Positions 6,503 through 26,636 of a DNA stretch of 47,564 nucleotides are shown here, piece after piece. The notes under the pieces were generated by a model. It searched no databases. It was not told the DNA's origin and worked only from the letters and a program-made list of their open reading frames with translations. A program made the translations under genes and the position numbers. The stretch is taken from contig JAPUIX010000134.1 in the NCBI GenBank assembly GCA_027296625.1, positions 1 through 47,564 on the forward strand, given 5' to 3'. Each line of letters starts with the position of its first letter. Position 1 is the stretch's first letter. The stretch comes from Gammaproteobacteria bacterium (GTDB lineage: Bacteria; Pseudomonadota; Gammaproteobacteria; JAKEHO01).

Positions 6503-6532
6503 CACTTTTGTAACCATAAGGCAACCAGCGGC

Positions 6533-7054: not shown

Positions 7055-7186
7055 CGCTAAGATCCGATCACCTTTCGCCCAGGTGCGTTTTGAGGGAGAT
7101 GCTTGAGGGTACCGAGTCCCAGCTAATTTAAGGCATACGATTAAAGGGTGTGTCCCGCACGACCCCACCCGATGATCCAAGCAACC

Positions 7187-7627: not shown

Positions 7628-7655
7628 AGGTGTGAACGCCGGTGCTTTGTAAGGT

Positions 7656-7736: not shown

Positions 7737-7809
7737 TAGTGATCAATTGCTCTGGTTCAGTATAGAAGCTCCTTGAACGTTGTGCGCCCTGTTATTCGCA
7801 ATTCTTTTT

Positions 7810-8394: not shown

Positions 8395-8507
8395 AGTTAT
8401 GCCTCGCGCGCAACTACACCGGCATGGCAGGCACGAGTCCTGGGGAAGAATAAACAGCAAATTCCTCCACAGGAGATAGCGTTCGGCTGCAAAGGGAAAC
8501 CAACCCC

Positions 8508-9635: not shown

Positions 9636-9662
9636 TCTCTCACGACGCTCCGAACGACACCC

Positions 9663-10967: not shown

Positions 10968-11173
10968 CAGGATCCTATCGTTAGACTCGGTAAATAGGCC
11001 AGAGCCGCATGTCCTTGCATGATACTACGAGTCGATGGCGGGACGCACATCTTGCGATTAAATCGGTGGTTCGTGGTGGCATCGACTTTGAGATCGGCTC
11101 AGAAGAAAAAGGCGGCGCACGTCGCCTGCCACCCGCCTGTATACACCACCATAGCGCTAAGCGGTGTGTACCG

Positions 11174-11359
11174 TTATTTCTTGCCGATGGGTAGTCCAAT
11201 CGGGACACGAAACTTGAGTCGGCTGACATACCAGCTGCCTTCGGGGGCGACGCCCTTGCCTTCCACCGCCAGCACAGAGATCACCTTCGATTTCTCATCA
11301 TTCTTTTGACTTGCCACGGCCACATCGAAGTCAACGTACTGGAGCTCTCCACCCCCCAT
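11174..11359 (-). pseudogene. Short beta-rich ORF, possible gene fragment
   Basis: A 61-codon frame ending in VSRLKFRVPIGLP that looks like real protein, with alternating hydrophobic strand patterns and a conserved-looking YVDFDVAV segment. No ribosome binding site precedes its ATG. The same frame stays open for about 21 codons further upstream to a TAA without a good start. I read it as the 3' end of a decayed gene. The pattern loosely recalls small trypsin-co-occurring (trypco2-type) domains, but I cannot confirm this. The remaining sequence between 10968 and 11605 shows no gene. Confidence 0.3.
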
Positions 11360-11605
11360 GAGCGCCAGCCCGCGTGGCGTTCCACGCGTGACCGGATTGA
11401 TGGCACCGCCGCTATTGGTTTGCTTAGGTTAGTGTCGCGCTAGCTTGAAAAGCTGCATTTGGGTGAGCGTTAATCCGGAAACCTCCTTTACCCGCACAGG
11501 TAAGGATTATGATTTCTTTGTATGGCGCGGTGATCTGGACCGCAACCTATGAAAATTAAACAGATTTGCCCGATAACTCCCGACAAAACGCTGGCGGCAT
11601 TGGCT

Positions 11606-12124
11606 TCAGGCTTCCGCTTTTGCTTTTGTTTTTCGCGTTCTTGAACTTGTCTTAGGCTTTGCCAATTGTAGTTCCAATTTTTTCTGCGTCCTTTCCATCA
11701 TTTTTATAAGGGCTGCATTACTTCTTGCTGCCATCTTTAAAGCCGCGAGTTCAGCGCTAGAGGCAGCATCCGCAAGCTTCGATTTCCTTAACCAAACGGC
11801 CATATTGTGCAGTTCTTTATTGAGTTTTGCGATCTCCCGTTTCGTTACGGGTACAGCTTTCTTTCTGTACCGTACTGTTAGCCTTTTCAACTTTTTCGCC
11901 GCTTGTTTTTGTTGTTTCAGCAAACGATCCATCGTCCTTTTACCAGCAGCAACTTCCTTATTGATGAGCCGAATAGCTTTACTGTAGGAATTCGTGATCG
12001 ACTTAGCCAATTGGCCTTGCCGAGTACTCATTGCCTTAATATATTTCATTCTTTTTGACCCGGCTGTTGGCATTGCAGATTTAGTTGCCGCCTTTTTTCT
12101 TGCCACTTTTTTCCTCGCTGCCAT
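11606..12124 (-). CDS. Lysine/alanine-rich basic protein, histone H1-like
   Basis: A 172-residue, strongly basic, low-complexity helical protein. It begins with AARKKVARKKAATKSA, has a central predicted coiled coil (about 35-155, rich in Lys, Leu and Ala) and ends in another basic tail (RTRKTKAKAEA). Composition is like bacterial histone H1/Hc1-like and AlgP-type nucleoid proteins, so DNA or RNA binding is plausible. No enzymatic motif is visible. It stands alone with about 400 bp of non-coding sequence upstream. Function is inferred from composition only. Confidence 0.65.
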   Translation of the reverse strand: MAARKKVARKKAATKSAMPTAGSKRMKYIKAMSTRQGQLAKSITNSYSKAIRLINKEVAAGKRTMDRLLKQQKQAAKKLKRLTVRYRKKAVPVTKREIAKLNKELHNMAVWLRKSKLADAASSAELAALKMAARSNAALIKMMERTQKKLELQLAKPKTSSRTRKTKAKAEA

Positions 12125-12528
12125 CTTGCCTACCCCTCTTTTATCAATAACTGATTAGAATAGTACCTGTTACCCACGCATCCGCTCGCCGTCACCATTT
12201 ATCACAATTAACGATCTCCAAATAAAATTATGCGTTTTTCACAGCTTATGGGGTAGCGAAAACCTCATCAACCCTGTTTGCTAAGAATCGTACCTGTGGA
12301 TCGAGGATAGCCCACAGTCAGGAAAAACTCTTCTTGTTCGATAATGAATATAATTCGCCCTCGGTCAGCTTTGCGTAAATGCGAACTACAGCGACACGAG
12401 ACGTATCCTCGGATCGCGCTCTACAGAGCCGTAACCGAAGTATAGAAAATCTATTGGAATTGCGCCCCTACTCTCTTACCGGATTTGCGACTTAGTCACT
12501 AAGGGGCGGTGGGAAGTTAAGGTAACGG
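12125..12528. other. Intergenic region upstream of the basic protein
   Basis: About 400 bp, AT-richer than its surroundings, with no supported ORF or structured RNA that I can recognise. It should contain the promoter of the basic protein; a GAGG motif lies about 10 nt before that ATG. Confidence 0.5.
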
Positions 12529-12975
12529 CTAATGCCGTATTCCAATTTGTTCCTTATACGTTTCGAATAGCTGGCAAGACAGCTTTCTTGCCGCTTCGAT
12601 CTCAGCTGGCGTCATTAAGTCAACCATGATATCCCGACTCTTGCTCGCCGTATCATCTCCCGCGGCTGCGCCCACGTTAAACCAGGCATACGCCACTACA
12701 TAGTCCTGCGGGACACCTGTCCCCTTGAGATAGGCGACACCGAGGTTGTATTGGGCATGGACCTGACCTTGTTCTGCAGCTCTCCGCCACCATTTCACCC
12801 CTTCCACGGGGTCTAGCAGTACCCCCTTGCCATTCATGTACATATCCCCAAGGAAGCACTGCCCAACAGGAGCTCCCTGCTCGGCCATCAGCCAAAATGT
12901 GCTAAGCGCCACGGTATAATCGGCTCGTTCATAGGCGGCTACGGCAGCGTCAAAATCTTGCAATGTGAGCATCAT
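12529..12975 (-). CDS. Sel1-repeat protein without signal peptide
   Basis: About 148 aa with two to three Sel1-like (TPR-type) repeats: FLGDMYMNGKGVLLD, WWRRAAEQGQVHAQYNLGVAYLKGTG and QDYVVAYAWFNVGAAAGDD. It ends with the cap MTPAEIEAARKL...Y shared with two other Sel1 proteins in the window. Such proteins are interaction scaffolds. The ATG at 12973-12975 has GGGGAG 9 nt upstream and overlaps the stop codon of the upstream small ORF (ATGA), implying translational coupling. Unlike the paralogues it has no signal peptide of its own, so a frameshift separating it from the upstream signal-bearing ORF is an alternative. Confidence 0.75.
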   Translation of the reverse strand: MMLTLQDFDAAVAAYERADYTVALSTFWLMAEQGAPVGQCFLGDMYMNGKGVLLDPVEGVKWWRRAAEQGQVHAQYNLGVAYLKGTGVPQDYVVAYAWFNVGAAAGDDTASKSRDIMVDLMTPAEIEAARKLSCQLFETYKEQIGIRH

Positions 12976-13235
12976 AAGGCGCATCTCCCCTGAGGATCCA
13001 ACGGCAAGCACCGTTTCTGCTGGTGCCGATTCTGTAACGCCACTTTGGCTTGGTCGCTTTGCCGACTGCGTTCAACCGGCGGTAACCGCCGATCTGGCGT
13101 ATAGGACATTAGGTCGTGCCGATATGCACCCTGCGTACCAGCGGTCCTTTGCAGATCCCCATGGCCGCCTGTCGCAGCGAGCAGGGAGACGGCCAGCACG
13201 GCTGGAATCAAAAAGTATTGCATGCTTGTTGTCAT
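12972..13235 (-). CDS. Small putative exported protein coupled to Sel1 gene
   Basis: An 87-codon ORF with a good ribosome binding site (GAGG, 7 nt spacing). Its N-terminus looks like a signal peptide (hydrophobic core in YFLIPAVLAVSLLAATGG). The remainder is polar and basic with no recognised domain. Its TGA overlaps the ATG of the downstream Sel1 gene. Either it is a genuine small exported protein, or it is the signal-peptide end of an ancestral longer Sel1 gene split by a frameshift. Confidence 0.45.
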   Translation of the reverse strand: MTTSMQYFLIPAVLAVSLLAATGGHGDLQRTAGTQGAYRHDLMSYTPDRRLPPVERSRQSDQAKVALQNRHQQKRCLPLDPQGRCAL

Positions 13236-13552
13236 CGCAGCGCCTCAAATGAACGAATGAGATTGCCTTTAAAACTCTGCATCCGCTCGACCTCTTCATA
13301 AAACTACTTCTAGCAACCCGAATGCAGCATGTCAGCCTCTGCACGACAGGAGGTGCGGATCGGCCGACAAACGGTCCCAGCCCTGCGCAAATTGTGACGT
13401 AGGCCCGAGGGACGCCCTTTAGCGGAAGCCGGGTTGTTTGTGCCATACGGCCAATATAGGGAAAACGACGCGTCGGTTAGAGCGCCGCGACAAAGCGTTG
13501 TTGACCTGGAAGTGTGACGTGATGCTAGCTGCGGGGAACGTGCCGGTTACAG
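13236..13552. other. Intergenic region
   Basis: About 315 bp between the DUF4124 gene and the small exported ORF. I see no gene, terminator or recognisable RNA. A 124-codon frame overlapping this region on the minus strand has no Shine-Dalgarno sequence and protein-like features are absent. Confidence 0.5.
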
Positions 13553-14119
13553 TCAACGATACCCACGAAAATAGCGTTTAAGTCCCTCAAGTGTTTGATT
13601 GATGTCCTGCATCTCTGCATCTCGCTGTTGTTCCTTAAGCCGGTTTTCGGCAAGTGCAAGTTCCTCCTCCATATCTAGATTCTCTATCGCTCTCGCTTCA
13701 CGTCGAGTTTCTTGATCCGGCTTATCATAGAATTTATCTAGCTTTTCGTCGATGGCAAATAATTCATCGCCAACGACGCGAGCTTCTGTCAATTCTTCAT
13801 ATGTAATAGTGGCCGTTTTTAGGCGCCGAAATACAGCGGTGCGATCCGCCTCAACCCGTTCCTTCTCGTCCAGTAGTTTCTGATACTCAGCTTCTGCGGT
13901 GCGACGGGCCCGTTCCGCTTCCCTTTGAAGTCTCGCTTCTTGGCTAGGTGATGTCGGCATGCACTCGATCCGAACAGTTTTTTCACGGGTAATACACGAG
14001 CGCGGGACGGTGCTGATGTGCTTCACGCCTTCACTATCAACCCAGACGTAGAGCGCATGACTATTGCAGCACACAGCGAATAACAATACGCCGATGCAGT
14101 AGCGAATCAATGTTCCCAT
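13553..14119 (-). CDS. DUF4124 coiled-coil exported protein
   Basis: A 188-residue protein with a signal peptide (hydrophobic core IGVLLFAVCCNSHA), then a DUF4124-like segment (LYVWVDSEGVKHIS) and a long charged coiled coil (about 60-180, rich in Glu, Arg and Ala). The frame is open for 92 more codons upstream, but that part has no signal peptide or domain. The ATG at 14117-14119 is chosen because the signal sequence follows directly. It is downstream of the kinase and a second DUF4124 gene on the same strand, so a shared envelope role is likely. Specific function is unknown. Confidence 0.7.
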   Translation of the reverse strand: MGTLIRYCIGVLLFAVCCNSHALYVWVDSEGVKHISTVPRSCITREKTVRIECMPTSPSQEARLQREAERARRTAEAEYQKLLDEKERVEADRTAVFRRLKTATITYEELTEARVVGDELFAIDEKLDKFYDKPDQETRREARAIENLDMEEELALAENRLKEQQRDAEMQDINQTLEGLKRYFRGYR

Positions 14120-14343
14120 CGTTTCCACGCCTCTGGGTACTTGAGCATCCGTTGAAGCTGAGCCATTGATCATACAGCTTATCCCATTGTCGGCTGATGC
14201 ACGAAACGCGCTACGTATTCTCCCATCTCTCACGTAGTATAGCTCGCTGCATCCAAATAGCCTGCGAACACACATGTTGCCAGATTTAATCTTCGACCTC
14301 ATGTTACCGAGGAATTGTGCGTTTGCAGATCCAACCCTTAGCG

Positions 14344-15087
14344 TCAAGGACAGTAAGTGCCACCGTCCGCAAGTTGCGCCATTACGTCGATCCATTCCTC
14401 AGAAGATTTCACCATTCGAGTGTCGACTCGTGAAGACACCGACTGCCAATGAACACTCCATACTTTAGGATCACTGTCGCGTGGGTTGTCTACACAACCG
14501 CTCCAATGACATACATAGACTGCGATCCAATAGTCCTTGCATTTTAGGCCTCGCAGCTTAGGAGAAATAAATCCCTCGACCTCCGATCCATGCCGCGTCC
14601 TGCCAATTACAATCGGAGCATACGGATCCAACGGGTCTTCAAAAAAAGCCTCGAGATAGACGCCATCAGGCATACTCGGCTTGGGCCGTAATACAATTGA
14701 AAACTGTCCAACTACTTCGCCCGCGCTCCAGTCCAGTGCAATGTCGGCATTGACCGTTTCAAGGTATTCAGATGATTCATAAAATGGCACAGCATCTGAC
14801 ACCACCGGCAAATGATCGTCCCCCTCGTGTGCATCACCTCCGGGCGAAGACTGCTGGTTGTTCAATTGCTCTCTCAATCGCTGCCGCGCTTCTCCTGTCG
14901 CTTCGTAAAAAGGTAACGGCCTAACGTCAACGATTTCTCCCTTGTGTTCCTCAGATGGATTATCGGAGTAGGTGACATTGCCCTCATCATCCTCCCACTT
15001 GTAGACGGCAGCGGCAGCGTTCATGGTGGCTGCAATTAAAACGATACCAGCCGCTAAGTACGTCTTCACATATCGAACCTTACTCAT
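14344..15087 (-). CDS. DUF4124 domain exported protein
   Basis: A 247-residue protein with a signal peptide (AAGIVLIAATMNAAAA), a classical DUF4124 motif (VYKWEDDEGNVTYSDNP, about 28-44), a polar linker and a beta-rich C-terminal domain (about 110-247) with several cysteines. DUF4124 is common in gammaproteobacterial periplasmic proteins and has no fixed function. Its ATG overlaps the stop codon of the upstream Ser/Thr kinase gene (ATGA at 15084-15087), so translation is coupled. The pair may form a membrane kinase and periplasmic partner. Confidence 0.75.
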   Translation of the reverse strand: MSKVRYVKTYLAAGIVLIAATMNAAAAVYKWEDDEGNVTYSDNPSEEHKGEIVDVRPLPFYEATGEARQRLREQLNNQQSSPGGDAHEGDDHLPVVSDAVPFYESSEYLETVNADIALDWSAGEVVGQFSIVLRPKPSMPDGVYLEAFFEDPLDPYAPIVIGRTRHGSEVEGFISPKLRGLKCKDYWIAVYVCHWSGCVDNPRDSDPKVWSVHWQSVSSRVDTRMVKSSEEWIDVMAQLADGGTYCP

Positions 15088-16706
15088 CGATCCGTTTCAC
15101 CACCTATGCGTTCCTTGAATTCTTCTCCCCGTATGCCCGAATCAGCTGATTCTTGCTGCCCCGTTTTTGAGCGTGAAAATCGCTCCCTAAACTCCTTAAG
15201 ACGTTTTTTCGAAGAATATGTCTGAGCTTGTTCGCGTTTTGCAAGCCACGCCTTTGTTGCACGTTGAACGTTATCCGCATCCGGTGCTAGGCGCGAGGCT
15301 TTCCGCAAATAGTATCTCGCCTGTTCAATTTTGTTAGCATCGAGATCGCGGTAGACAAGATGAACATACCGATTGACGATCGCTTCGATACCATCTTTCG
15401 CATCCTGGTTATTCGGGTCAAGCGCTAATACTTCATAGTACTTATCCAGCGCATTTTTCCCCTTAGGACTGGAAAGTCGCCATGCCTTGAAATCTGTCTC
15501 GGCGCCTTTCAAGAGTTTGTCGATGCGCTCGGCATTCTGTGAGGACACAACGGGCTGTGCTGCTTCGGGAACACCCGGCGCTTCGGTGGAGACCCCCGGC
15601 TCGGTTTCCCGCGGCCCGACCATCACCGCCTGCTCAACGGTCTGGGCGGGTTCATCAATGTCAGAAACCTCCGGGCCAACATGCTGTTCAGGCATCGATG
15701 CAATGATAAAGAGACCAACGAAGATAACGAGCAGAAACAAAAGGGCAACGATAAGGCCCTTGTGAAGCCCCCATTTGACCATCTTCTTGCGTGGGCGCGT
15801 TGGGCCCGTTCTTGTTACGCCAAACTCTTCCCGCCACTCACGCACTGAGCTCGGACGGTCTTGGGACTTGAACGCCAGTGCATGATCTATGGCGCGCAGA
15901 AAGCGATCAGAATACCTTCCAGCGGCCATTTCAATGCTCGCCTTGTATTCATCTGCAGCGTTTTGTGTGATTCCTGCGCTTCGTTCGACCGCGTCCGCCG
16001 GCGTCACTCCCGTAACCGCCCGATACAGCGTCGCTCCGAGCCCGTAGATATCGGTCCAAGGGCCCTCCATCTCGCTCTTACCGGCGTATTGCTCGATGGG
16101 GGCGTAGCCAGGTGTGGCAATGTTTGTCAGCGTGCGTGATTGTTGCTGCAGGGCTTGGCGTGCGGAGCCAAAATCCAGCAGGACCGGGCTCCCATCGCCG
16201 CGAATAAAAATGTTGCCGGGTTTGATATCCCGGTGAATAAAGCCTGCCTCATGGACCTCTTCTAGGCCGCTAAGAATGGGCAGAAGGATCTTGATGAGTT
16301 CTGCCTCTTCCAATGTCCCTTGGCTAACCAGAAAATCTTTTAGGCTCTTACCGACTTCATAGCTCATCACCATATAGGCCGTATTATTCGCCTCAAAAAC
16401 ATTTATAACCCGCACAATGTTCGGATGCTCGAACTTCGTGAGCGTGCGCGCCTCACTGATAAAGCGGTCAAGTCCCCACCTGAACTGTTCTGCATGCTCC
16501 TCAGAAAGCGGGTGGACTGTTTCATCCGTCTCACGCATTGCGAACTGGGCCGGTAGATATTCTTTGATTGCCACATGCCGATCGAGGTTGATGTCGTGAC
16601 AGAGGTAGGTGATCCCAAATGCACCCTGTCCCAGGATCCCTTCTATCCGGTACCAGTGCAGTTCGTAGCCCAATGGGAGTGCATTGCGGTGCGATGTTTG
16701 CTCCAT
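15084..16706 (-). CDS. Membrane Ser/Thr protein kinase (PknB/Hanks type)
   Basis: A 540-residue eukaryotic-like kinase. The kinase domain (about 14-290) has the glycine loop GQGAFGITY (26-34), the ATP-anchoring Lys48 in VAIKEY, the catalytic loop HRDIKPGN (158-165) and DFG (178-180). All catalytic residues are intact. One transmembrane helix (about 317-337) is followed by a C-terminal region with TPR-like helices, predicted to lie in the periplasm. The gene is followed by two DUF4124 exported proteins, the first with an overlapping start codon, which suggests signalling across the inner membrane. Substrates are unknown. Confidence 0.92.
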   Translation of the reverse strand: MEQTSHRNALPLGYELHWYRIEGILGQGAFGITYLCHDINLDRHVAIKEYLPAQFAMRETDETVHPLSEEHAEQFRWGLDRFISEARTLTKFEHPNIVRVINVFEANNTAYMVMSYEVGKSLKDFLVSQGTLEEAELIKILLPILSGLEEVHEAGFIHRDIKPGNIFIRGDGSPVLLDFGSARQALQQQSRTLTNIATPGYAPIEQYAGKSEMEGPWTDIYGLGATLYRAVTGVTPADAVERSAGITQNAADEYKASIEMAAGRYSDRFLRAIDHALAFKSQDRPSSVREWREEFGVTRTGPTRPRKKMVKWGLHKGLIVALLFLLVIFVGLFIIASMPEQHVGPEVSDIDEPAQTVEQAVMVGPRETEPGVSTEAPGVPEAAQPVVSSQNAERIDKLLKGAETDFKAWRLSSPKGKNALDKYYEVLALDPNNQDAKDGIEAIVNRYVHLVYRDLDANKIEQARYYLRKASRLAPDADNVQRATKAWLAKREQAQTYSSKKRLKEFRERFSRSKTGQQESADSGIRGEEFKERIGGETDR

Positions 16707-16878
16707 CGGTGTCTTTCCTTACTCAGTGGGCGATTGCAGGATCAGGGTGTACTGTCGAGCGTAATTGAAGAAAATCAGCCTACAGAATTTCTAATTCTGA
16801 GCTTCTGACGCAGGCGGTACGCCCGGCATTGCATATGGGCGCGCGCTATACGGAATCGTATCGGCTCGCCAGTGATCG

Positions 16879-17148
16879 CTAGTGGTGATATTGATCAAAG
16901 ATACTCTCGAGCTGGCCCTCGGAATTAAAGTGCAGGACCTTGCTAGCTGAGCCATGCCGAACATAGATCCATTGATCGCCAGAGTCATCCGTTGGCGGTC
17001 CACACAACTGAAGGATTTCGTTTTTATAAGGCCCAACGGTCTGGCCATCTTCGATGATTTCACCGCCACAGCGCATATTGCCGGCCGATAGCGCTTGTGC
17101 GTAAAAAAATAGGCACAAGATGCTCACCTTTAGAACGAGTCGTTTCAT
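16879..17148 (-). CDS. DUF2845 domain exported protein
   Basis: An 89-residue exported protein with a signal peptide ending near AQALSAG, then a DUF2845-type domain (MRCGGEIIEDGQTV, KNEILQLCGPP, YVRHGSASKVLHFNSEG). Two conserved cysteines may form a disulfide. The ATG at 17146-17148 has GGAGG 7 nt upstream; the frame extends 8 codons further, but that start is poor. Its function is unknown in all members I know of. Confidence 0.75.
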   Translation of the reverse strand: MKRLVLKVSILCLFFYAQALSAGNMRCGGEIIEDGQTVGPYKNEILQLCGPPTDDSGDQWIYVRHGSASKVLHFNSEGQLESIFDQYHH

Positions 17149-17792
17149 ATCCGAGCCTCCTCGGGGTTTCAAGTCACAACATCACCGCAAGCCAAGCGCG
17201 GCGCGAGAGTACCTTCTACCTCACATGCCAATAAAAAGTCTAGCCTGTTTCCAAGCCAACCGAGTTCTGCGCTCACACGGGTGTCGGCGATGCCAGCGAC
17301 CCGCCACACGGGACACCCGACGCGGAGCCAACAAGCACCGGGCGAACCGAGAATTTTCCCCCTACCCATGCCTTCCCGGTTTAGCAGACGCCACAGGTGC
17401 TACAATTAAAAAATTGCTCTCCTATTGCGGTGAACGGCGAAACGGTTCGGCGGGCGCTCTTCGCGGGGGTAGACGATCTAGGGAGCCGCCTGACCTTAAT
17501 AATAAGAATGATCAAATGGAGATGAACTAAGCTATCAATGCGATCGATGGTCATGCCCTGGCCTTCTCAGAAGGAAGAGGCCCGGGCAAGGTGTCGATCG
17601 GTCTGCTCGAGTTAACACCCCAAACCAGGGCCCGGGATCGGTGCACTGGCAACGAGAGATGGGGCACCTGGCTTGGGTAGCTGCCGAGATGGCTGAAGCA
17701 AACAATACCATTAAATCGACCCGACCAGCGGTTGAGGGCACGCCTGCGACTTGCGGCTGACGTCGCCCCGACGTGGAGAGGGCCAGCGCAAA
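17149..17792. other. Non-coding leader/intergenic region with GC-rich hairpin
   Basis: About 640 bp without a supported gene on either strand. At 17554-17588 the plus strand can form a stem of TGCCC-GGCCT against AGGCC-GGGCA with one mismatch. It has no U-tract, so it is not a typical terminator. It may lie in the 5' leader of the GGDEF-EAL gene. I could not match it to the known c-di-GMP riboswitch consensus. Confidence 0.4.
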
Positions 17793-20700
17793 ATGAGTGA
17801 AAAGGCCAGCATTCTGATCATTGACAACGACGAGAGCAGCCGTCGCAGCCTGTCGCTCGCGTTTGAGCAAAATGGCTACGAGGTCGAAACTGCGGAAACG
17901 GCGCTCGAGGCCCTAGAAAAAGCGGGAGGCCAGTCGTTTGAGGTCGCGCTCTTAGAGATCGGGCTGCCGGACATGCAAGGCGTAAAGCTTGTGGCACCAT
18001 TAAGGGAAAGGCACCCCAATATGGTGGTCATTATCATTGCTAGCCATGCCTCGCTGGACACGGCGGTAGGGACATTAGACGACGGAGCATCGGCGTTCGT
18101 CGTAAAGCCGCTGGACCTAGAAGAGGTGATGTCGACAATCAGGCAGGCCCTCAGTGAGCCGCCCCTCATCATGAAGAACCGGATGCTCGCTCAGGCGGCG
18201 CAGCGGGAAATCGCCCAGCGTAAGCATGCCGAGGAAGCGCTCCGGGAGGCCCAGACACATTTCCAACACCTGTTGAATGCGAGTCCCTCCGTTACCTACG
18301 CGACGAGCGTCGAGGACGAACACGCGTGCAACTTTGTGAGCGAAAACTTGTTGGAGGTTATGGGCTATGAGCCTGGGGCGATGACCAGCGATCCGAGGTT
18401 CTGGATCAACCATGTCCACCCAGACGATGCGGCGCGTATCACCCGTGAGGTGGAGGGAGCACTCAAACAAGGTGGCGGTACGCTCGAATATCGCTTTCAG
18501 GCCGCCAACGGCAAGTACCGCTGGACCCATGATGACTTTCGTCTGATCCGCGACGAAGCCGGGGAACCAGTTAAAATTGTCGGCTCGTGGACGGACATCA
18601 CCGAGCGCAAACAGGCGGAGGACTCACTTGGGGAGCGTTTAAAATTTGAGCAGCTTGTCTCAACGATCTCCACGAGCTTTGTCGACCTGCCGATCTCAGA
18701 AGTCGACAAGGAAATCCAGCACGGTTTGAAGCGCATTGTGGAGCTTTTGGGCCTCGACCGCAGCACTCTATACCGGTTTTCGGATGATAAGTCCCGACTT
18801 CGGGTAGTAAATTCCTATGCTACCTCTGGAATCAAGCCGGCAACGAACCTCCATAGGCAGGACGAATTTCCCTGGTTTACCGAAACACTGCGTCGTGGTG
18901 AGATTATTCGTATATCGCGGCCGGCGGATGTGCCGGAGGTCGCAGTTAATGAGCGGGCCTACTATTTGAGGGAGGGACTCAAGGCCAACCTGACCATCCC
19001 CTTGACGGTGGGCGGTTCGACTCTGGGCGCAATGGCACTGGCGTCATTTCGTTCGGAACGAAGCTGGCCTGACGGGCTTGTCAAACGACTGCGACTCGTC
19101 GGGGAAATCTTTGCCAACGCCTTAGCGCGCAAGCAGGCAGAAGAAGCACTACGCGCAAGTCAGGAACGCCTTACACGAATCTATGCCTTCGCCAATGACG
19201 GCATCTTCATCATCGATTCGGAGAAGGACGAGATCGTTGAAGTGAACCCGAGGGCAGCTGCGATGCTGGAGTACACACCTGAGGAACTGGCCGGAATGCC
19301 GGTCCGTCGGATCTACCCGAAGGAGATGGGCCATTTTAGCCGTATTGCGGCTGAGATACGTGAGAATGAGCAGCGCTATACCCGCGAGATGACCTGTCAG
19401 ACAAGATCGGGGGCAACGATCCCAGTCGAGATCTCAGCGTCGACGATCCAAATTGGCGAGCGGGCTTTGATACTGGCGATTGCACGTGACATTACAGAAC
19501 GCAAGCGAGCCGAGAGTGCGTTGCGGGCCAGCGAAGAAAGACATCGCGTCTTGTATGACGACATTCCCTCGATGTACTTCACCGTCGGTGCAAAAGGGAC
19601 CATCTTATCCGTCAGTCGTTTTGGTGCTCAGCAGCTTGGCTACACGCGAAAGGAACTCGTTGGCACCTCCATTATTGATTTGTTTCACGACCAAGATAAG
19701 GAAACGGCCAAGCAGATGCTGGAGAAGACGCTGAGCGAGCCGAATCGCTTGCACCGTTGGGAGATCCGCAAGGTGCGCAAGCACGGGACCATGCTGTGGG
19801 TTCAGGAAACGGCTCGGGTCGTGAAAGGTGCCGATGGTCAATCAACCCTGTTGATCGTATGTGAGGACATCACAGAGGCTCGCCAGCTATCCGAAGAGCT
19901 TTCCTACCAGGCCAGTCACGATGTCTTAACGCGACTGGTTAATCGCCGGGAATTTGAACACCGTTTAACGCGCACGTTACAGAATGCGCGCAAAGGCAAA
20001 AACAAGCACGCCCTGTGCTACTTAGACCTCGACCAGTTCAAGGTCATCAATGACACCTGTGGGCATGTTGCCGGTGATGAATTACTGCGGCAACTTGGCG
20101 AGGTCTTGAGGGGGAAGGTAAGGCAACGCGACACCTTGGCCCGCTTAGGGGGAGATGAGTTCGGAGTCTTGATGGAACACTGCTCATTGACGCAAGCGAG
20201 CCGGGTTGCCAATGCATTGCAGAAGGCAATTCAAGAGTTTCGGTTCGTCTGGAAAGACAAACGTTTCAGCATTGGCGTCAGCATCGGCTTGGTGCCCATC
20301 GACGAAGCCAGTGAAGGTGTGGAAAGTGTATTAAGGATGGCCGATGAAGCGTGTTACGCCGCCAAGGACGCCGGACGCAATCGAACGCATATTTACCACA
20401 AGGCCGATACCGATCTGGCAAGGCGACGTGGGGAAATGCAATGGGTCTCTCGGATCCACCGGGCACTCGACGAGGATCGCTTCCATCTGGTATTCCAGCC
20501 TATCGCGCCTATCGTCACAGCGGATGATGACGGCGATCATTATGAACTCCTGCTTCGGATGGAAGGTGACGAAGGGCGTCTTGTGCCGCCGGGCGCCTTT
20601 CTCCCTGCAGCGGAGCGTTACAACCTCTCAACGAAGGTCGACAGCTGGGTCGTCGCCAAGGCGCTTGAGTGGCTGACGAGCAACCCGAAGCACTTGGCAA

Positions 20701-21185
20701 GCTTAGCCATGTGCTCCATTAACCTATCCGGCCACTCCCTGGGGGAGGATACGTTTCTTGAATTCGTCGTCCGTCAATTCAACAAGACAAAAATTCCACC
20801 GGAGAAGATCTGCTTTGAGGTAACAGAGACAGCGGCCATTGCAAACCTCTCGAGCGCAACCCGATTTATTAAAGCACTGAAAGAGCTTGGCTGCCTGTTT
20901 GCGCTAGATGATTTCGGGAGTGGTCTGTCCTCGTTTGCATATCTTAAGAACCTGCCAGTGACCTTCCTAAAGATCGACGGCTCGTTTGTGAAAAACATTG
21001 TGGAGGATCCCATCGACTTCGTTATGGTTAACTCGATCAATGAGATTGGACGGGTAATGGGTAAGAAAACGATTGCCGAGTTCGTTGAGAATGAGTCTAT
21101 CTTGCAGATGCTTCGAGAGATTGGGATCGATTACGCCCAGGGCTATTACATTGGCCGCCCACGACTCTTGACGGAAATGACGTGA
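17793..21185 (+). CDS. REC-PAS-GAF-PAS-PAS-GGDEF-EAL c-di-GMP signalling protein
   Basis: A cytosolic 1130-residue protein without membrane segments. Domains: receiver (about 5-120), PAS/PAC (about 155-280), GAF (about 290-450), PAS (about 460-585), PAS (about 590-710), GGDEF (about 715-880) and EAL (about 895-1130). The cyclase motif GGDEF is intact (near 787), with an RxxD inhibitory site (RQRD) five residues upstream. The EAL domain keeps ELLLR, NLSG, FEVTET, DDFGSG, LKIDGSF and QGYYIGRP, so both activities look possible. The receiver has Glu55 instead of the phospho-accepting Asp and D-N-D in the acidic pocket, so it is probably not phosphorylated normally. The ATG at 17793 is preferred over an upstream TTG because the receiver domain starts there. 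Confidence 0.93.
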   Translation: MSEKASILIIDNDESSRRSLSLAFEQNGYEVETAETALEALEKAGGQSFEVALLEIGLPDMQGVKLVAPLRERHPNMVVIIIASHASLDTAVGTLDDGASAFVVKPLDLEEVMSTIRQALSEPPLIMKNRMLAQAAQREIAQRKHAEEALREAQTHFQHLLNASPSVTYATSVEDEHACNFVSENLLEVMGYEPGAMTSDPRFWINHVHPDDAARITREVEGALKQGGGTLEYRFQAANGKYRWTHDDFRLIRDEAGEPVKIVGSWTDITERKQAEDSLGERLKFEQLVSTISTSFVDLPISEVDKEIQHGLKRIVELLGLDRSTLYRFSDDKSRLRVVNSYATSGIKPATNLHRQDEFPWFTETLRRGEIIRISRPADVPEVAVNERAYYLREGLKANLTIPLTVGGSTLGAMALASFRSERSWPDGLVKRLRLVGEIFANALARKQAEEALRASQERLTRIYAFANDGIFIIDSEKDEIVEVNPRAAAMLEYTPEELAGMPVRRIYPKEMGHFSRIAAEIRENEQRYTREMTCQTRSGATIPVEISASTIQIGERALILAIARDITERKRAESALRASEERHRVLYDDIPSMYFTVGAKGTILSVSRFGAQQLGYTRKELVGTSIIDLFHDQDKETAKQMLEKTLSEPNRLHRWEIRKVRKHGTMLWVQETARVVKGADGQSTLLIVCEDITEARQLSEELSYQASHDVLTRLVNRREFEHRLTRTLQNARKGKNKHALCYLDLDQFKVINDTCGHVAGDELLRQLGEVLRGKVRQRDTLARLGGDEFGVLMEHCSLTQASRVANALQKAIQEFRFVWKDKRFSIGVSIGLVPIDEASEGVESVLRMADEACYAAKDAGRNRTHIYHKADTDLARRRGEMQWVSRIHRALDEDRFHLVFQPIAPIVTADDDGDHYELLLRMEGDEGRLVPPGAFLPAAERYNLSTKVDSWVVAKALEWLTSNPKHLASLAMCSINLSGHSLGEDTFLEFVVRQFNKTKIPPEKICFEVTETAAIANLSSATRFIKALKELGCLFALDDFGSGLSSFAYLKNLPVTFLKIDGSFVKNIVEDPIDFVMVNSINEIGRVMGKKTIAEFVENESILQMLREIGIDYAQGYYIGRPRLLTEMT

Positions 21186-21219
21186 CTGCGTCGCATTGCG
21201 CGGCGGTGAATTGGCCTGT

Positions 21220-21765
21220 TTATCGTGGGGAACTCTCCACCGCTTCTAGTCTCTTGCGATAGAGTAATTTCCAGCTTTCGACATCTTGCCTGTCCCTGAC
21301 AGATATTGGCGTTGCGATTGCCCGCACTTCATCAAAGTAAATATTGGGTTCAGGGATGATCAATGACGCAGCGACCTTCTCCTTTTCCGCCTCACTCATC
21401 GAGTGATAGATCAAGCTCAGATGTGGATCAAGGACATAATCAGATGGCTTTGCCAAGCGTTGCCTCAAGGCGTCTGATAAGGCACTCAGCCTGTGTGATG
21501 GATGAAACTGCACGAATAACGTCTTCGTAAAATCACTTGTATGACCAATGCGATCGATACGAAGCCAAACGCCTTCCATCCCGGCGGTTGCCTCCTCAAT
21601 CACATCCCCAAGCGATTCATTGTCACTGCGCTCCCCTACAAAGATCGTCACATGGGGTTCAAACACCGGTGCACCATAGGTGTTCGCTAAGGTGTTGATC
21701 ATCTTTTGGAAAGGCGGCCGACCCCTATCCGACGGCATCAGCCAGTAGGCCACTCTTGGCAGCAT
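21220..21765 (-). CDS. 2H phosphoesterase family protein (cyclic phosphodiesterase-like)
   Basis: About 181 aa with the two HxT/S motifs of the 2H superfamily: PHVTIFVG and PHLSLIYH. These place two catalytic histidines as in 2'-5' RNA ligase/cyclic phosphodiesterase proteins, which hydrolyse 2',3'-cyclic or 1'',2''-cyclic phosphates. The start at MLPRVAYWLMP (ATG 21763-21765) puts the first beta strand at the N-terminus as usual; the open frame runs 26 codons further up without support. The cellular substrate is unknown. Confidence 0.78.
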   Translation of the reverse strand: MLPRVAYWLMPSDRGRPPFQKMINTLANTYGAPVFEPHVTIFVGERSDNESLGDVIEEATAGMEGVWLRIDRIGHTSDFTKTLFVQFHPSHRLSALSDALRQRLAKPSDYVLDPHLSLIYHSMSEAEKEKVAASLIIPEPNIYFDEVRAIATPISVRDRQDVESWKLLYRKRLEAVESSPR

Positions 21766-21878
21766 CACCGACCCCCTACTCGCCAAGCGCATCACGCCCC
21801 CCAGTGTGGCAGCGGACGACCCTGCGCGGCTCCCGTCAACCACATGATCTGATAGATGCGGCAGGGGTGATGAGTCGC

Positions 21879-22463
21879 CTATTCTCCCTCGCGCGACTTT
21901 CTCCCTGGGAGCGGTATGAGCATCGACACCTGGCGACTGTATTCGTTGTACCGTTGCCCAAGAAAAGTCCTCAGATCCCGCTCTTCGAATTGGATACCAA
22001 TGAGAATGTAGCCTGTCGTTGCAATAGCGAATAAGAGATGGCCTTGTGTCATCTCCGGTGTCGCCCAGAACACGATCACGAACCCCAGCATGATGGGATG
22101 GCGCACATACCGATACAGCGCCGTGGTCTTGAATTCAACCGACGTATATTCCAGGCCACGCAGATGCAGATAGACCTGACGTAAGCCGAAAAGATCGAAG
22201 TAGTCAATCATAAAAGTCGAGAGGAGCACGGTACCCCAGCCAATCCAGAAGAGCCCTATCAAAACAAAGCGACCGGCTGTATTCTCGACCTGCCAGACGA
22301 CATCCGCCATCGGGCGCCACTGCCAGAAGAGTAGTATCAGAATGAGACTGGATATCAGTACATAGGTGCTGCGCTCAACAGGCCTTGGAACGAACTGCGT
22401 CCACCACTTTTTAAACCCCGGGCGGGCCATCACGCTGTGTTGAACCGCAAAGAGGCCGAGCAA
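21879..22463 (-). pseudogene. mddA: N-terminally truncated MddA-like methanethiol S-methyltransferase
   Basis: The frame encodes 194 residues strongly resembling the membrane-bound isoprenylcysteine methyltransferase-like MddA family, which methylates methanethiol to dimethyl sulfide. Recognisable segments are VQHSVMARPGFKKWW, LILLFWQWRP, YRYVRHPIMLGF and GIQFEERDLRTF. Full-length members are about 260 aa with roughly 60 more N-terminal residues (one to two membrane helices). Here the frame begins mid-helix at a TTG with no ribosome binding site, an in-frame TAG lies four codons upstream, and no frame upstream encodes the missing part. I therefore read it as a 5'-truncated pseudogene, although a shortened functional form is possible. 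Confidence 0.6.
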
Positions 22464-22645
22464 AAGGCAAAACTACGCCTTTATTACGGCCTAAACAAGC
22501 CACCTCAGGACGTCGCTTGCTTAGAACCTGTCCAAGCGATCAACTTGTGCGTACGATTCTCAGGTAAGTTGTGTAATATGATATGCGATCAATCAACAGA
22601 AAATTTTACAGTGCCCCCTCAGAGCCGAGACAACGGCGTCGGATC

Positions 22646-23368
22646 ATGAAAGGAGATTCACGTCCATTCTGTGCAGCCATAAGCTGCCTGTTTGCCACCG
22701 TGCTGTTGTGCGTTGCGAGCCCTGTGGCGCATGCAGCCGTCATCTATAAATCGGCCAGCCTCGGCCCCATCGGACAATCCGGTGGCCATGAGGTCAATGC
22801 ATCGCTCTATTTCGCAAACCGCTTCACGGTAACTCAAGATACGCAAGTCACGCGTATCGGGGGCCACATGCGCTGTAACACAGGCTGCGGCGAACAGGGC
22901 GCTATCTTCGGTGCCATCGTAAAGATCTCGCCAGAGACGGGTTTTCCCTCGTTCAAACCCTCGGAGATCGGGCAACCAAGTAAGGTGCTCGCCTATACAC
23001 GGCTGACACCAACGCAGCTCAGCAAGGATGTGCGCGCAATCCTCCGCGTGGTCCTACCACCCGGTGAATACGCGCTCGTCTTCGGCTCTGGGGCCCTTGG
23101 CGCCTCCGGATCAGCCAGTCTACCGGACAACAATCCCGTTCTTCCCGGGGCTTCGTTTTTCCAGGGAACCGTTGAGACAGACACCTGGACCAACATCGAC
23201 AGCTTACCAATGCGATGGCGATTAGTCGTCGACGGGGAGCCCCTTCCCTGGTGGCATATCTTCCTCAGGAAGACCACGCTCGTCAGTGTCGGCATCGGCA
23301 TTCTGCTGGCTGTGGTCTTCGTCTGGGCGCTCAGGCGACGGCGCCAACGGGGCGAGGCAGAAAGCTAG
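22646..23368 (+). CDS. Exported protein with C-terminal membrane anchor
   Basis: About 240 aa. A cleavable-looking signal peptide (hydrophobic core LFATVLLCVASPVAHA) is followed by a beta-rich domain with two close cysteines (RCNTGCG) and a C-terminal transmembrane helix ending in an Arg-rich tail (WALRRRRQR). The topology is an externally exposed domain held by a tail anchor, as in sorted surface proteins, but no PEP-CTERM or LPxTG motif is present. The ATG at 22646 is chosen for the signal peptide; an ATG at 22583 is the alternative. The family was not recognised. Confidence 0.65.
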   Translation: MKGDSRPFCAAISCLFATVLLCVASPVAHAAVIYKSASLGPIGQSGGHEVNASLYFANRFTVTQDTQVTRIGGHMRCNTGCGEQGAIFGAIVKISPETGFPSFKPSEIGQPSKVLAYTRLTPTQLSKDVRAILRVVLPPGEYALVFGSGALGASGSASLPDNNPVLPGASFFQGTVETDTWTNIDSLPMRWRLVVDGEPLPWWHIFLRKTTLVSVGIGILLAVVFVWALRRRRQRGEAES

Positions 23369-23423
23369 CTGCTTGCTGGCGTCGCTGAACTCCCCGCCCC
23401 GTCCCCTGACCTCACCCCGATCC

Positions 23424-23481
23424 GTAAGCGATCTGTAAGCCGCTTGTAAGCAGCCTGTAGCCCTCCCCCTGCCAGTATGGC
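23424..23481 (+). promoter_or_regulatory. Four 11-bp-spaced GTAAG half-sites plus promoter core (copy 1)
   Basis: GTAAG/GTAG half-sites begin at 23424, 23435, 23446 and 23457, exactly 11 bp apart, with consensus close to TGTAAGC. A core TATGGC begins 19 nt after the last half-site start (23476). Tandem 11-bp repeats are typical of OmpR/PhoB-family response-regulator binding. The arrangement is repeated at 23945-24002. Confidence 0.65.
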
Positions 23482-23565
23482 GTCACACGGCAATTTCTAT
23501 TGCGATTGCTGAGGACCAAATCAATTTCGTGAGATGGACGTTATCTGGACAGAAGAGGTGCTGCG

Positions 23566-23892
23566 ATGTACGAATTAATCTTTGCACTCTGGGTGACCTG
23601 GACCGACGGCAACGTATCAGCGAACCATTGCCACCAGTTTGCCCACGCCGCAGAAGCTGCTGCCGTGGTAAAAAATAAAGACCTCCCCGCGGTACTTGCA
23701 GCTTTTGAAGGCGCAGATATTACCGACTACAAGCGGGATATGTTCTCAACCGCACTGCAGTTCGTCGCAGCAAACCAGATCGTAAACCCGACCGCAGCTC
23801 ACGATATCGCCTTAGCGATGTGCATGGGTAAGCGCAAGGATGGTCCCGCTAACACGTGGACGAATAAAAGTCGGTGGCAAGGCCCATTCTAA
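23566..23892 (+). CDS. Hypothetical 108-aa protein
   Basis: An ORF with a good ribosome binding site (AAGAGGTG about 6 nt before the ATG). The protein starts with a short hydrophobic stretch (MYELIFALWVTW) that is too short for a clear signal peptide, followed by mostly helical, Ala-rich sequence with two cysteines (HCHQF, AMCMG). No family was recognised. It is controlled by the first of the twin direct-repeat promoters and shares that architecture with the downstream DUF992 gene, so it is probably part of the same response. Confidence 0.6.
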   Translation: MYELIFALWVTWTDGNVSANHCHQFAHAAEAAAVVKNKDLPAVLAAFEGADITDYKRDMFSTALQFVAANQIVNPTAAHDIALAMCMGKRKDGPANTWTNKSRWQGPF

Positions 23893-23944
23893 TCCTGGGC
23901 CACACGCTGCCCTATCCTCCGACACATCCCCGGTTCGCACAACT

Positions 23945-24002
23945 GTAAGCAACTTGTAAGTCGTTTGTATGCGGCCGGTAAGGACGACCCTGCGATGATG
24001 GC
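23945..24002 (+). promoter_or_regulatory. Four 11-bp-spaced GTAAG half-sites plus promoter core (copy 2)
   Basis: GTAAG/GTATG half-sites begin at 23945, 23956, 23967 and 23978, again 11 bp apart. GATGGC begins 19 nt after the last half-site start (23997), the same distance as in copy 1. A CCCTGC segment between them is also shared. This drives the DUF992 gene with a leader of about 25 nt. Confidence 0.65.
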
Positions 24003-24033
24003 ATCGTCATTCTACTGAATAGGAGATGATGTG

Positions 24034-24585
24034 ATGAAACTTAGCAATTTAAATATGAGTAATCTGTTGAGTACCCGTTGGTCGAGGTTTATAGCGACCA
24101 CGGTTTTTCTGCCTGTCATCGTCGCCACACTGGCTGTGGTATCTACGATGGAGGCCAATGCAGCGCCCGGCCTCCAGGTTGGGGTGCTGACCTGTGAAAG
24201 CGTCCCCGGTACGCGTTTCAATATGCTCATTCACTCCTCCGTGGATGTTGAATGCGTCTTCAACTACGGTGGCGTCGAAGAGCAGTATTACGGCGAGACA
24301 GGTATCGGGATCGGACTTGATCTAAAGTCGGTGGGCGATGAGCAAATCGCATACATGGTGTTTGCTCTCTCCGGCGATGTCGAACCCGGTGCGCATGCGC
24401 TCGCAGGTGATTACATTGGCGGGAAAGCCAGTGCCGCGGCAGGCGTCGGTGTGGGCGCCGCGGTTCTCGTCGGCGGTGGCGACAAGAATTTCAGCTTGCA
24501 GCCACTGGCCCTTGAGACCAGCACGGGCTTCGGTGCCTCAGCAGGTGTGAGCTATCTCTCGATCTGGCCGGCCGACAAGGAGTAA
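24034..24585 (+). CDS. DUF992 domain exported protein
   Basis: A 183-residue exported protein with a signal peptide (TTVFLPVIVATLAVVSTMEANA) and a DUF992 domain: VGVLTCESVPG, VECVFNYGG, YYGETGIGIG, and a Gly/Ala-rich C-terminal part with VGVGAAVLVGGG and SLQPLALE. The function of DUF992 proteins is not known. The ATG at 24034 lies 8 nt after AGGAG; a GTG one codon upstream is also open. It is followed by a clear terminator and preceded by a four-half-site promoter. Confidence 0.8.
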   Translation: MKLSNLNMSNLLSTRWSRFIATTVFLPVIVATLAVVSTMEANAAPGLQVGVLTCESVPGTRFNMLIHSSVDVECVFNYGGVEEQYYGETGIGIGLDLKSVGDEQIAYMVFALSGDVEPGAHALAGDYIGGKASAAAGVGVGAAVLVGGGDKNFSLQPLALETSTGFGASAGVSYLSIWPADKE

Positions 24586-24634
24586 AAGTGCAAGCACCAC
24601 TTCTCGAACAAGGATCGTCATGATGTGCTATCAC

Positions 24635-24661
24635 AGCCCCCGCCCTGGCGGGGGCTTTTTC
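24635..24661 (+). terminator. Rho-independent terminator of the DUF992 gene
   Basis: The stem AGCCCCCGCC/GGCGGGGGCT with a short CT loop is followed by TTTTT. It lies 50 bp after the DUF992 stop codon. Confidence 0.92.
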
Positions 24662-24750
24662 TTGCGGCAGAGCGCGAGAGTCTAATTTAAAGTGCGATAG
24701 CCGTTGCTAAACGAACCTCTATTGCACCCTGCCGTTTTATTACAGCAGCA

Positions 24751-25539
24751 TTATTGCTGCTGCTCACATTGGGGATTTTTGCCTTGGGCGCGGGCCTGGT
24801 CGCGCAGTTGGATGGCATCCGGCATGCGCGCTTCGAGATCATGGATCCGGGTGCCATGGGATGGATGGGTGGACAGAAACTCGGGGGGCTGTCCCCCGCC
24901 GGCTTCGCTCATATTGACCCATAAGTTGACGCTTTCCTGCGGGTCAAAACCCGCCTCAGCCATGAGATCCAGGCCATACAGGTCGGCTTCGCTTTCATGA
25001 ACGCGGCTATAGGGGAGCAAGACGCCATACTGCGCCCCTACACCGAGCGCACCCATCAACGCCTCACCCGACGCGCTGTGCGGGTTTGCCACAGCGCTAG
25101 CAACACTCAGCCCCGTATGCACGGCAAACTGTTGCGAAACCCGCTCATTGCTGTGATGGGACAACACATGCGCCACTTCATGACCAAGCACAGCGGCCAG
25201 TTGATCTTGATTCTCGGCAACGGTTAACAAACCCCTATGAACCCCAATCTTGCGACCCGGGAGCGCGAAGGCATTGGGTCTATCATCCTTGAATACAACC
25301 ACTTCCCAGTTGCCCCCCATTTCTTGCGTTATGGCGTTGGCGACACAGTCAACGTACGCGTTAATATGCTTATCCTGCTCAATGGGTTCTTCTGCTTTAA
25401 TGCCCTGAAACGCTTCCAGTCCCATCGCATCCATCTGTGCTTCCGAAAAGATCACGAGTTGTTGCCGCCCCAGTGGAGACGTAGCACAACTCACGAGAAT
25501 AAGTGCGCTAACGAGAGCGACTGACAGCGCTTTAAACAT
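24751..25539 (-). CDS. M48 family metallopeptidase, lipoprotein
   Basis: A 262-residue zinc protease related to LoiP/YggG and the BepA catalytic domain. The N-terminus is a lipoprotein signal with lipobox LVSC, so it should be anchored in the envelope. The active site is HEVAH (within VLGHEVAHVLSHHSNE), and the third zinc ligand is the Glu in SEADLYGL. Family members take part in outer-membrane protein quality control. The ATG is preceded by AGGAGG. It is a single gene; no TPR domain is attached, unlike BepA. Confidence 0.88.
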   Translation of the reverse strand: MFKALSVALVSALILVSCATSPLGRQQLVIFSEAQMDAMGLEAFQGIKAEEPIEQDKHINAYVDCVANAITQEMGGNWEVVVFKDDRPNAFALPGRKIGVHRGLLTVAENQDQLAAVLGHEVAHVLSHHSNERVSQQFAVHTGLSVASAVANPHSASGEALMGALGVGAQYGVLLPYSRVHESEADLYGLDLMAEAGFDPQESVNLWVNMSEAGGGQPPEFLSTHPSHGTRIHDLEARMPDAIQLRDQARAQGKNPQCEQQQ

Positions 25540-25902
25540 ACCTACCTCCTGAGTCGGGCTCCGATCACATAGCCGTTAGGCAACAGGATATTCCGAGCGC
25601 CTGACGTAAAAGACCATGCTCAGCCCCAATAGTTGCGCTCATGCTGCCGGTGCGTTTAGCCATGACCTTGCAGCATGCGACGCAGCACCTGCTTTATTAG
25701 CCAGGCAGTTTAAGGGAGGCGTATGATAAATAAAATTTAATATTTTTATAGTGAGGGTAGAAAAAAACTATTAAGCCCCGCCGGCCATGATAGCGTGTCA
25801 GAAGGGCGATCGTGGCGTTTTGTTCTAGGTTGTTACACGCACACAGCGCCTGATACCACTGCGCTGGCCGCTACAAAACAAACCAGCAAGGTGTCGAGTC
25901 GA
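25540..25902. other. Intergenic region between M48 gene and tRNA cluster
   Basis: About 360 bp with no gene. It contains a markedly AT-rich stretch around 25725-25770, including a run of seven A on the plus strand (minus-strand T-run) preceded by GGCCGGCGGGGC, which may serve as a weak terminator of the tRNA operon. Confidence 0.45.
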
Positions 25903-26216
25903 TGGTGGGCCGTATAGGAATCGAACCTATAACCAATGGATTCAGCTACCCCGCCGTTTCCGGCCGGACTGGACTATCTCACGACCCTCAGCCTTACCTG
26001 TTAGGGTCCCGGGCGCTTCAGGCGGTGATTAAGGGGACTGGACCCCTCCGCTAGTCTCTGGACCTTCCGGGGGTGCACCCCCGGCTTGGCTGCGGATTGC
26101 CATAGGCTAACGCCCTTAGGTTCCCCGCAATTCACCCGGATCATCTCACGTCTTTCGAACGCAAGCGCTCACTTGTTGCAAGAGTCCACTGCTCTACCTA
26201 GTTGAGCTAACGGCCC
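25903..26216 (-). tRNA. tRNA-Lys (anticodon CUU), split by a group I intron
   Basis: The 5' exon (26180-26216) begins GGGCCGTTAGCTC and ends in the anticodon loop CTCTT. The 3' exon (25903-25942) continues AATCCATTGG and ends CGGCCCACCA. Joined, they give a 77-nt cloverleaf with 7-bp acceptor stem, A73, anticodon stem GTGGA/TCCAT and loop CU-CUU-AA, very like E. coli tRNA-Lys. Anticodon CUU reads AAG. A register giving Gln (CUG) is disfavoured by A73 and by the terminal G that group I introns require. It is the last gene of a Pro-Arg-His-Lys operon. Confidence 0.92.
25943..26179 (-). other. Group I intron (IC3-like), 237 nt, in tRNA-Lys(CUU)
   Basis: The intron starts after U36 of the exon and ends in G (TAGCTG). 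The core matches the IC3 type known from the Azoarcus tRNA-Ile intron: GAACCTAAG and TATGGCAA...CAGCCAAGC (P4-P6), a perfect P6 hairpin (26067-26084), GAAGGTCCAGAGACTAG, P7 strands GACTA (26052-26056) and TAGTC (25972-25976), and P9 GCCG-GAAA-CGGC (25953-25964). A candidate guide GAGA (26144-26147) would pair with the exon end UCUU with G-U at the splice site. It encodes no ORF. Self-splicing is inferred from the core. Confidence 0.9.
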
Positions 26217-26255: not shown

Positions 26256-26332
26256 TGGGGTGAGCGATGGGATTTGAACCCACGACCGCCGGAACCACAA
26301 TCCGGAGCTCTACCAACTGAGCTACGCTCACC
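26256..26332 (-). tRNA. tRNA-His (anticodon GUG)
   Basis: The acceptor GTGAGCG pairs with CGCTCAC. The anticodon loop TTGTGGT gives GUG. The discriminator is C73 and an extra G-1 is encoded at 26332, both hallmarks of bacterial tRNA-His. The CCA end is encoded. Confidence 0.95.
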
Positions 26333-26347
26333 ATGACCAGCCTGGGT

Positions 26348-26371
26348 CAACTTCTGCTCGCTCAGAAGTTG
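26348..26371. repeat. Perfect 9-bp hairpin in tRNA-Arg/His spacer
   Basis: CAACTTCTG (26348-26356) and CAGAAGTTG (26363-26371) flank a 6-nt loop, just upstream of tRNA-His in the transcript. It is probably an RNA-processing structure. Confidence 0.6.
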
Positions 26372-26407
26372 TCGAACCTTTATACAGTGCTCGCCTGCCA
26401 ACAACAG

Positions 26408-26451
26408 CAACTATTCGAATAATCCAGATTGCTGGATTATTCGAATAGTTG
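26408..26451. repeat. Perfect 20-bp inverted repeat abutting tRNA-Arg
   Basis: CAACTATTCGAATAATCCAG (26408-26427) and its exact complement (26432-26451) flank the loop ATTG. The right arm overlaps the CCA end of tRNA-Arg by two bases. It has no U-tract. It could be a processing hairpin or the trace of an integrated element at the tRNA 3' end. Confidence 0.85.
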
Positions 26452-26526
26452 GCGCGCCTGGCAGGACTCGAACCTGCTACCCTCGGCTTAGAAGGCCGAT
26501 GCTCTATCCGGATGAGCTACAGGCGC
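26450..26526 (-). tRNA. tRNA-Arg (anticodon UCU)
   Basis: The acceptor GCGCCTG pairs with CAGGCGC, followed by encoded GCCA. The anticodon stem TCGGC/GCCGA closes the loop CTTCTAA with anticodon UCU (codons AGA/AGG). 77 nt with CCA. Confidence 0.95.
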
Positions 26527-26559
26527 AGTCACATCAAACCCATGCCAGCGTTTATCATC

Positions 26560-26636
26560 TGGTCGGGGTAGAGGGATTTGAACCCCCGACATCCTGCTCC
26601 CAAAGCAGGCGCGCTACCAGACTGCGCTATACCCCG
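26560..26636 (-). tRNA. tRNA-Pro (anticodon UGG)
   Basis: The acceptor CGGGGTA pairs with TACCCCG, followed by ACCA. The anticodon stem CTGCT/AGCAG encloses TTTGGG-type loop sequence with anticodon UGG. It is the first gene of the tRNA operon. Confidence 0.95.

Follow-up and report, generated by a model that had tools for sequence, protein, structure and literature searches.

A predicted phage-type group I intron directly after the anticodon of a gammaproteobacterial tRNA-Lys(CUU)

In a gammaproteobacterium, a group I intron splits a chromosomal tRNA-Lys(CUU) gene immediately behind the anticodon; the lineage of this intron and its arrival at the site are considered here. Introns of the tRNA-Leu(UAA) type belong to subgroup IC3. 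In 2007, four bacterial tRNAs were counted as hosts of group I introns (PMC1995217), and tRNA-Ile2 introns have been described in Acidovorax and Burkholderia (PMC8450103). Subgroup IA2 is mainly viral and bacterial, and horizontal transfer has been suggested for it (PMC11835236); the introns of phages have been stated to lie all in protein-coding genes (PMC3984707).

Results

The window, that is, the whole stretch of DNA analysed here, is a contig of 47,564 nucleotides (JAPUIX010000134.1). On its minus strand, between 26636 and 25903, ARAGORN finds the genes for tRNA-Pro(UGG) (26636-26560), tRNA-Arg(UCU) (26526-26450) and tRNA-His(GUG) (26331-26256), a cluster spanning 26256-26636, and then the split tRNA-Lys(CUU) gene (26216-25903). 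A sigma-70-like promoter is predicted upstream of tRNA-Pro (26703-26675, promoter scan), and an inverted repeat with perfectly matching 20-bp arms and a loop of 4 nt lies between tRNA-Arg and tRNA-His (26408-26451). The split gene is missed by ARAGORN without the intron option and by the Rfam tRNA model, because default tRNA finders skip intron-split genes. With introns allowed, ARAGORN reads it as tRNA-Lys(ctt), ctctt-intron-aatcc, with an intron of 237 nt.

We derived the splice sites from the cloverleaf and from the required U.G pair and omega-G, which places the insertion between U36 (26180) and A37 (25942). The 5′ exon (26180-26216, minus strand) holds tRNA positions 1-36 and ends in ...GUGGACUCUU, the 3′ exon (25903-25942) runs from A37 onward with an encoded CCA, and the ORF-less intron fills 25943-26179, with omega-G (25943) as its last nucleotide; the junctions read ...GUGGACUCUU^GCAACAAGUGAG...GGGGUAGCUG^AAUCCAU.... 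Once the intron is removed, the exons form a full cloverleaf (ARAGORN) with a CUU anticodon and a Lys-type body. The covariance model RF00028 matches over its full length at 26189-25950(-) with 78.8 bits (E 1.8e-18; gathering score 50), and this is the only group I intron that Rfam finds in the 2.42-Mb genome. A preliminary description had proposed from the sequence a 237-nt ORF-less group I intron between positions 36 and 37, and both the covariance search and the derived splice sites agree with it.

The fold was assessed by covariation in an alignment of eight introns, comprising those of the window and of a second gammaproteobacterium (L081, see below) and six tRNA-Ile(CAU) introns. From P1 to P9, 96.7% of cells are paired and 33 of 70 pairs show double changes, against 34.9-43.6% and 5-8 pairs in controls with slid partner strands; these counts come from eight related sequences and are supportive, with no probability attached. 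In the outer helix of P2 (26145-26165), double changes occur at 6/6 pairs. P3 (26139-26133 with 26015-26009, spanning 26009-26139) has all cells paired and double changes at 2 pairs, and covariation supports the P4-P5-P6 domain (26062-26129; P4 26129-26124 with 26096-26091, P6a 26084-26078 with 26073-26067), P8 (25983-26008) and P9 (25950-25967), a hairpin with a GAAA loop that is also present in the Rfam alignment. The guanosine-binding helix P7 (26056-26052 GACUA with 25976-25972 UAGUC, spanning 25972-26056) is invariant in the eight sequences. An additional hairpin, P7.1 with an inner P7.1a (26022-26051), lies between the 5′ strand of P7 and the 3′ strand of P3, and has 9 pairs with all cells paired and double changes at 5. 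Together with the RF00028 match, the covariation thus identifies a group I core with conserved P3-P9 and the guanosine site in P7.

P1 (26168-26182) consists of C34-G12, U35-A11 and U36.G10, extended by G1.U9 and C2-G8, so that the internal guide GAG (26170-26168) pairs with the anticodon CUU in the minimum-energy fold; the U36.G10 pair and G25943 form the splice-site signature. In the tRNA-Ile(CAU) relatives the guide is GUG, opposite CAU (C34-G, A35-U, U36.G), which shows that the two have changed in concert. An earlier P1 register, GUG with a U.U mismatch (alignment A1), was dropped, as the Rfam alignment and folding both pick GAG.

A survey of the same site in related bacteria, which the preliminary description had called for, found one further intron and, at the syntenic place in a congener, an empty site. 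The intron is at 36/37 of tRNA-Lys(CUU) in L081 (JAOTXR010000062.1, a Gammaproteobacteria MAG; 215 nt, RF00028 79.9 bits), a genome only distantly related to that of the window (trigger factor 40% identical) and with the gene order Pro-Arg-His-Lys-Leu-tig. A genome of the same genus as the window's, G001, has an intronless tRNA-Lys(CUU) at the syntenic place. We considered an assembly artefact, which is unlikely because the same-site intron is present in the independent genome L081. In the window (6042-25903), about 20 kb separate tRNA-Lys from tRNA-Leu(UAG)-tig-clp-lon; the distance is about 17.5 kb in G001, and the two tRNA genes are adjacent in L081. This gap is an old insertion or rearrangement within the genus. 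In the L081 genome, tRNA-Lys(UUU) (L163) has a body very unlike those of the window's genus and may lie on a contaminant contig.

A pattern scan of genome contigs for tRNA-Lys broken after UU returned 72 stretches. Of the full introns read from these, 25 are inserted at 35/36, one nucleotide before the window's site (L022, L025, L028, L054-L058, L068-L085, L089 and L091, with L060 and L082 in tRNA-Lys(UUU)); they come from Acidobacteriota, Alphaproteobacteria, Clostridia and Bacilli/Mycoplasmatota, and L081 alone shares 36/37 with the window. The 35/36 introns have the guide GGAG and U35 at the splice site, many score below the Rfam gathering score, and they are unrelated to the window intron. 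The scan undercounts because its pattern is strict in the D-arm. Among pattern matches in 369 genomes of the class there was no further tRNA-Lys(CUU) intron at 36/37, and an intronless tRNA-Lys(CUU) was found in 103 of 185 genomes of the class.

At the same site in another tRNA, the relatives are gammaproteobacterial tRNA-Ile(CAU) introns after U36 (L002-L005, L007, L008). ARAGORN isotypes for other introns (Gln, Thr, Leu) were off by at least one base and were replaced by a reading of the splice sites with the terminal G. In two of the class's tRNA-Ile(CAU) genes (L012, L013) the intron follows U33, so across tRNAs the anticodon loop has been entered after each of U33, U34, U35 and U36. Members of the class have more group I introns outside tRNA anticodon loops (L009, L014, L017-L019), and some of their flanks (GAACGGTCCTAAGG, GCGAAATTCCTTGTCGGG) resemble 23S rRNA.

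Introns of the phages MQM1 (L204) and ZC08 (L202) and of a 735-kb uncultured phage (L203) match the window intron (blastn, RF00028), and the P7.1 motif of the window recurs in L203 and in no fewer than 120 viral contigs; contigs from IMG/VR were counted as viral as labelled by that collection. Among viral contigs with a tRNA(CAU), Ile or Met, broken after CAU, 23 show a matching 3′ exon and an intron of 188-751 nt. Several of these introns have the same P7.1 (L248, L352 and L354, 232-235 nt; L356, L379 and L386, 751 nt), and the introns of L354 and the window share 73% identity across 181 nt. There was no convincing tRNA-Lys(CUU) intron among 11 viral pattern matches, and no plasmid match. In L203 (1080-1760), the T-loop of the tmRNA is interrupted by a group I intron from this phage-type clade, and ARAGORN recognizes this tmRNA after both flanks are joined.

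In a maximum-likelihood tree, the introns of the window, L081, the bacterial tRNA-Ile(CAU) 36/37 sites, five phage tRNA(CAU) genes (L248, L352, L354, L340, L390) and three other phage loci, tmRNA and DNA-polymerase introns among them, form one set with 100/98 support. Within it, the relative branching of the introns from the window, L081, the Ile genes and the phages is weakly resolved. The window and L081 stand apart in the best tree, and their single clade is not rejected (AU p 0.39), nor is a single clade of Lys36 and Ile36 (AU p 0.38). The AU test rejects one clade for all Lys introns (p 0.002; 1.7e-5 on a smaller set).

The preliminary description had assigned the intron to IC3, like the tRNA-Leu(UAA) introns, and the location in an anticodon loop, the small size and the lack of an ORF would fit that class. 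To compare the subgroups, we trained two core models, R1 exclusively on six phage introns and R2 on eight IC3-type tRNA introns. The window intron scores 155.9 bits with R1 against 32.5 bits with R2, a weak match such as any group I core would give, whereas tRNA-Leu(UAA) and further IC3-type introns kept out of the training (L016, L011, L012, L058, L060) score higher with R2 than with R1. IC3 introns are marked by the absence of P7.1/P7.2 and by kinship with other IC3 tRNA introns; the window intron has a covarying P7.1 and groups in the tree with phage and tRNA-Ile(CAU) introns. The IC3 assignment thus becomes highly improbable. P7.1/P7.2 is a named feature of IA2, some members of which also have P9.1/P9.2 and a separate P7.2 (PMC4227781), and the intron of phage Twort carries P7.1/P7.2 as well (PMC1995217). 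In the window intron, P9.1/P9.2 and a separate P7.2 were not found, and P9 is a single hairpin. From P7.1 and the phage kinship, rather than from published subtype models, we infer that it is phage-type (IA, closest to IA2).

The nearest bacterial relatives lie in tRNA-Ile(CAU), so the host gene might itself be a former tRNA-Ile(CAU) whose anticodon mutated to CUU while the intron was retained; it shares its anticodon stem, GUGGA/UCCAU, with some Ile genes (L004, L008). The 5′ strand of this stem, however, recurs in intronless tRNA-Lys(CUU) genes of the class (G035, G177, G106, G062), the acceptor stem (GGGCCGU/ACGGCCC) is that of the G001 tRNA-Lys(CUU) and of the genome's own tRNA-Lys(UUU), unlike that of Ile, and the gene stands between His and Leu (20 kb on), where G001 has its intronless tRNA-Lys(CUU). 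The genome's own tRNA-Ile(CAU) is also intact, as is its tRNA-Leu(UAA). Conversion from tRNA-Ile is thus extremely improbable; the host gene is an ordinary tRNA-Lys(CUU), since its anticodon arm is also found without an intron elsewhere in the class. Very unlikely, too, is that the intron is degenerate and unspliced in a tRNA pseudogene, tolerated as tRNA-Lys(UUU) wobble-reads AAG. Such a tRNA-Lys(UUU), whose existence elsewhere the preliminary description had raised, is present and intact (G000:C129:32870, 76.6 bits), so tRNA-Lys(CUU) may be dispensable. Against decay, every helix of the intron is intact apart from a single mismatch in P9; U36.G, P7 and omega-G are conserved; the exons pair fully with CCA encoded; and L081 keeps the same intron. 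In 11 neighbouring ORFs the lysine codon AAG is also commoner than AAA (200 vs 97), so tRNA-Lys(CUU) would be useful, though perhaps not essential.

Discussion

Our preferred reading, which we consider highly probable, is that of an ordinary, functional intron, predicted to be self-splicing, whose ancestry is phage-type (IA2-like) and whose target has shifted from tRNA-Ile to tRNA-Lys. In the precursor, P1 would arise from the pairing of guide GAG with anticodon CUU, and its U36.G pair would define the 5′ splice site. Attack after U36 by a P7-bound guanosine would be the first of two GTP-dependent steps, and the freed U36 would then attack after omega-G (25943), leaving an intact tRNA-Lys(CUU). 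The predicted ribozyme is small and complete, with no homing endonuclease. Its source would be the tRNA-Ile(CAU) 36/37 intron family, common to gammaproteobacteria and phages and possibly phage-borne, and its target the near-identical ACUCUU/AAUCC loop of tRNA-Lys(CUU), reached with a one-base change of the guide from GUG to GAG. Reverse splicing or recombination of phage-borne tRNA genes might have provided the route, and in G001 the intron would have been lost or never gained. The direction from Ile to Lys is tentative, given the weakly resolved branching within the set.

The intron is a ribozyme of known type in a new location, and it suggests phages as carriers. These results add tRNA-Lys(CUU) as a host, connect the tRNA introns of bacteria with the IA-type introns of phages, show that phage tRNA(CAU) genes carry such introns, and provide a clean case of guide/anticodon compensation; spread between tRNA loops becomes testable with a short synthetic transcript. 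More generally, and with slightly less than even confidence, we propose that a family of IA-type introns travels on phage tRNA genes, enters the anticodon loops of bacterial tRNAs behind U36 and passes from one isoacceptor to another (Ile-CAU to Lys-CUU) through one change in its guide; the tRNA introns of bacteria would then derive from IC3 and, separately, from phage IA2.

Within the openly available literature covered, we found no tRNA-Lys(CUU) intron after U36 and no such combination of host, site and lineage. The novelty suggested in the preliminary description therefore holds for the 36/37 site, but not for the host as such, which recurs at 35/36. Those tRNA-Lys(CUU) introns (L022-L091) share the host isoacceptor with the window intron, but differ in splice site (U35) and guide (GGAG) and belong to other lineages, a single origin of all Lys introns being rejected. 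The IC3 introns of Azoarcus tRNA-Ile(CAU) and cyanobacterial tRNA-Leu(UAA) are also group I introns in anticodon loops, and the Azoarcus intron has, like that of the window, a short P1 on the anticodon and a U.G pair at the splice site; unlike it, they are without P7.1 and fall in another clade, and the tRNA-Leu site is 34/35. The preliminary description cites the Azoarcus intron and that of Agrobacterium tRNA-Arg(CCU) as IC3 cases at the 36/37 position. The 'group I introns' described in cyanobacterial tRNA-Lys (PMC5733544) measure 22-49 nt, too short for a group I core, and were not counted. Phage introns with P7.1/P7.2 (IA2), such as those of the Pf-WMP3 DNA-polymerase gene (PMC3428280), MQM1, ZC08 and the huge-phage tmRNA, resemble the window intron in core sequence and P7.1 architecture, but their hosts are mostly protein genes or tmRNA and some carry HNH ORFs, whereas the window intron is ORF-less and lies in a chromosomal tRNA gene. 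The gammaproteobacterial tRNA-Ile(CAU) introns are like it in the 36/37 site, size (232-260 nt), P7.1 and clade, and differ in the host tRNA, their guide being GUG for CAU and that of the window intron GAG for CUU.
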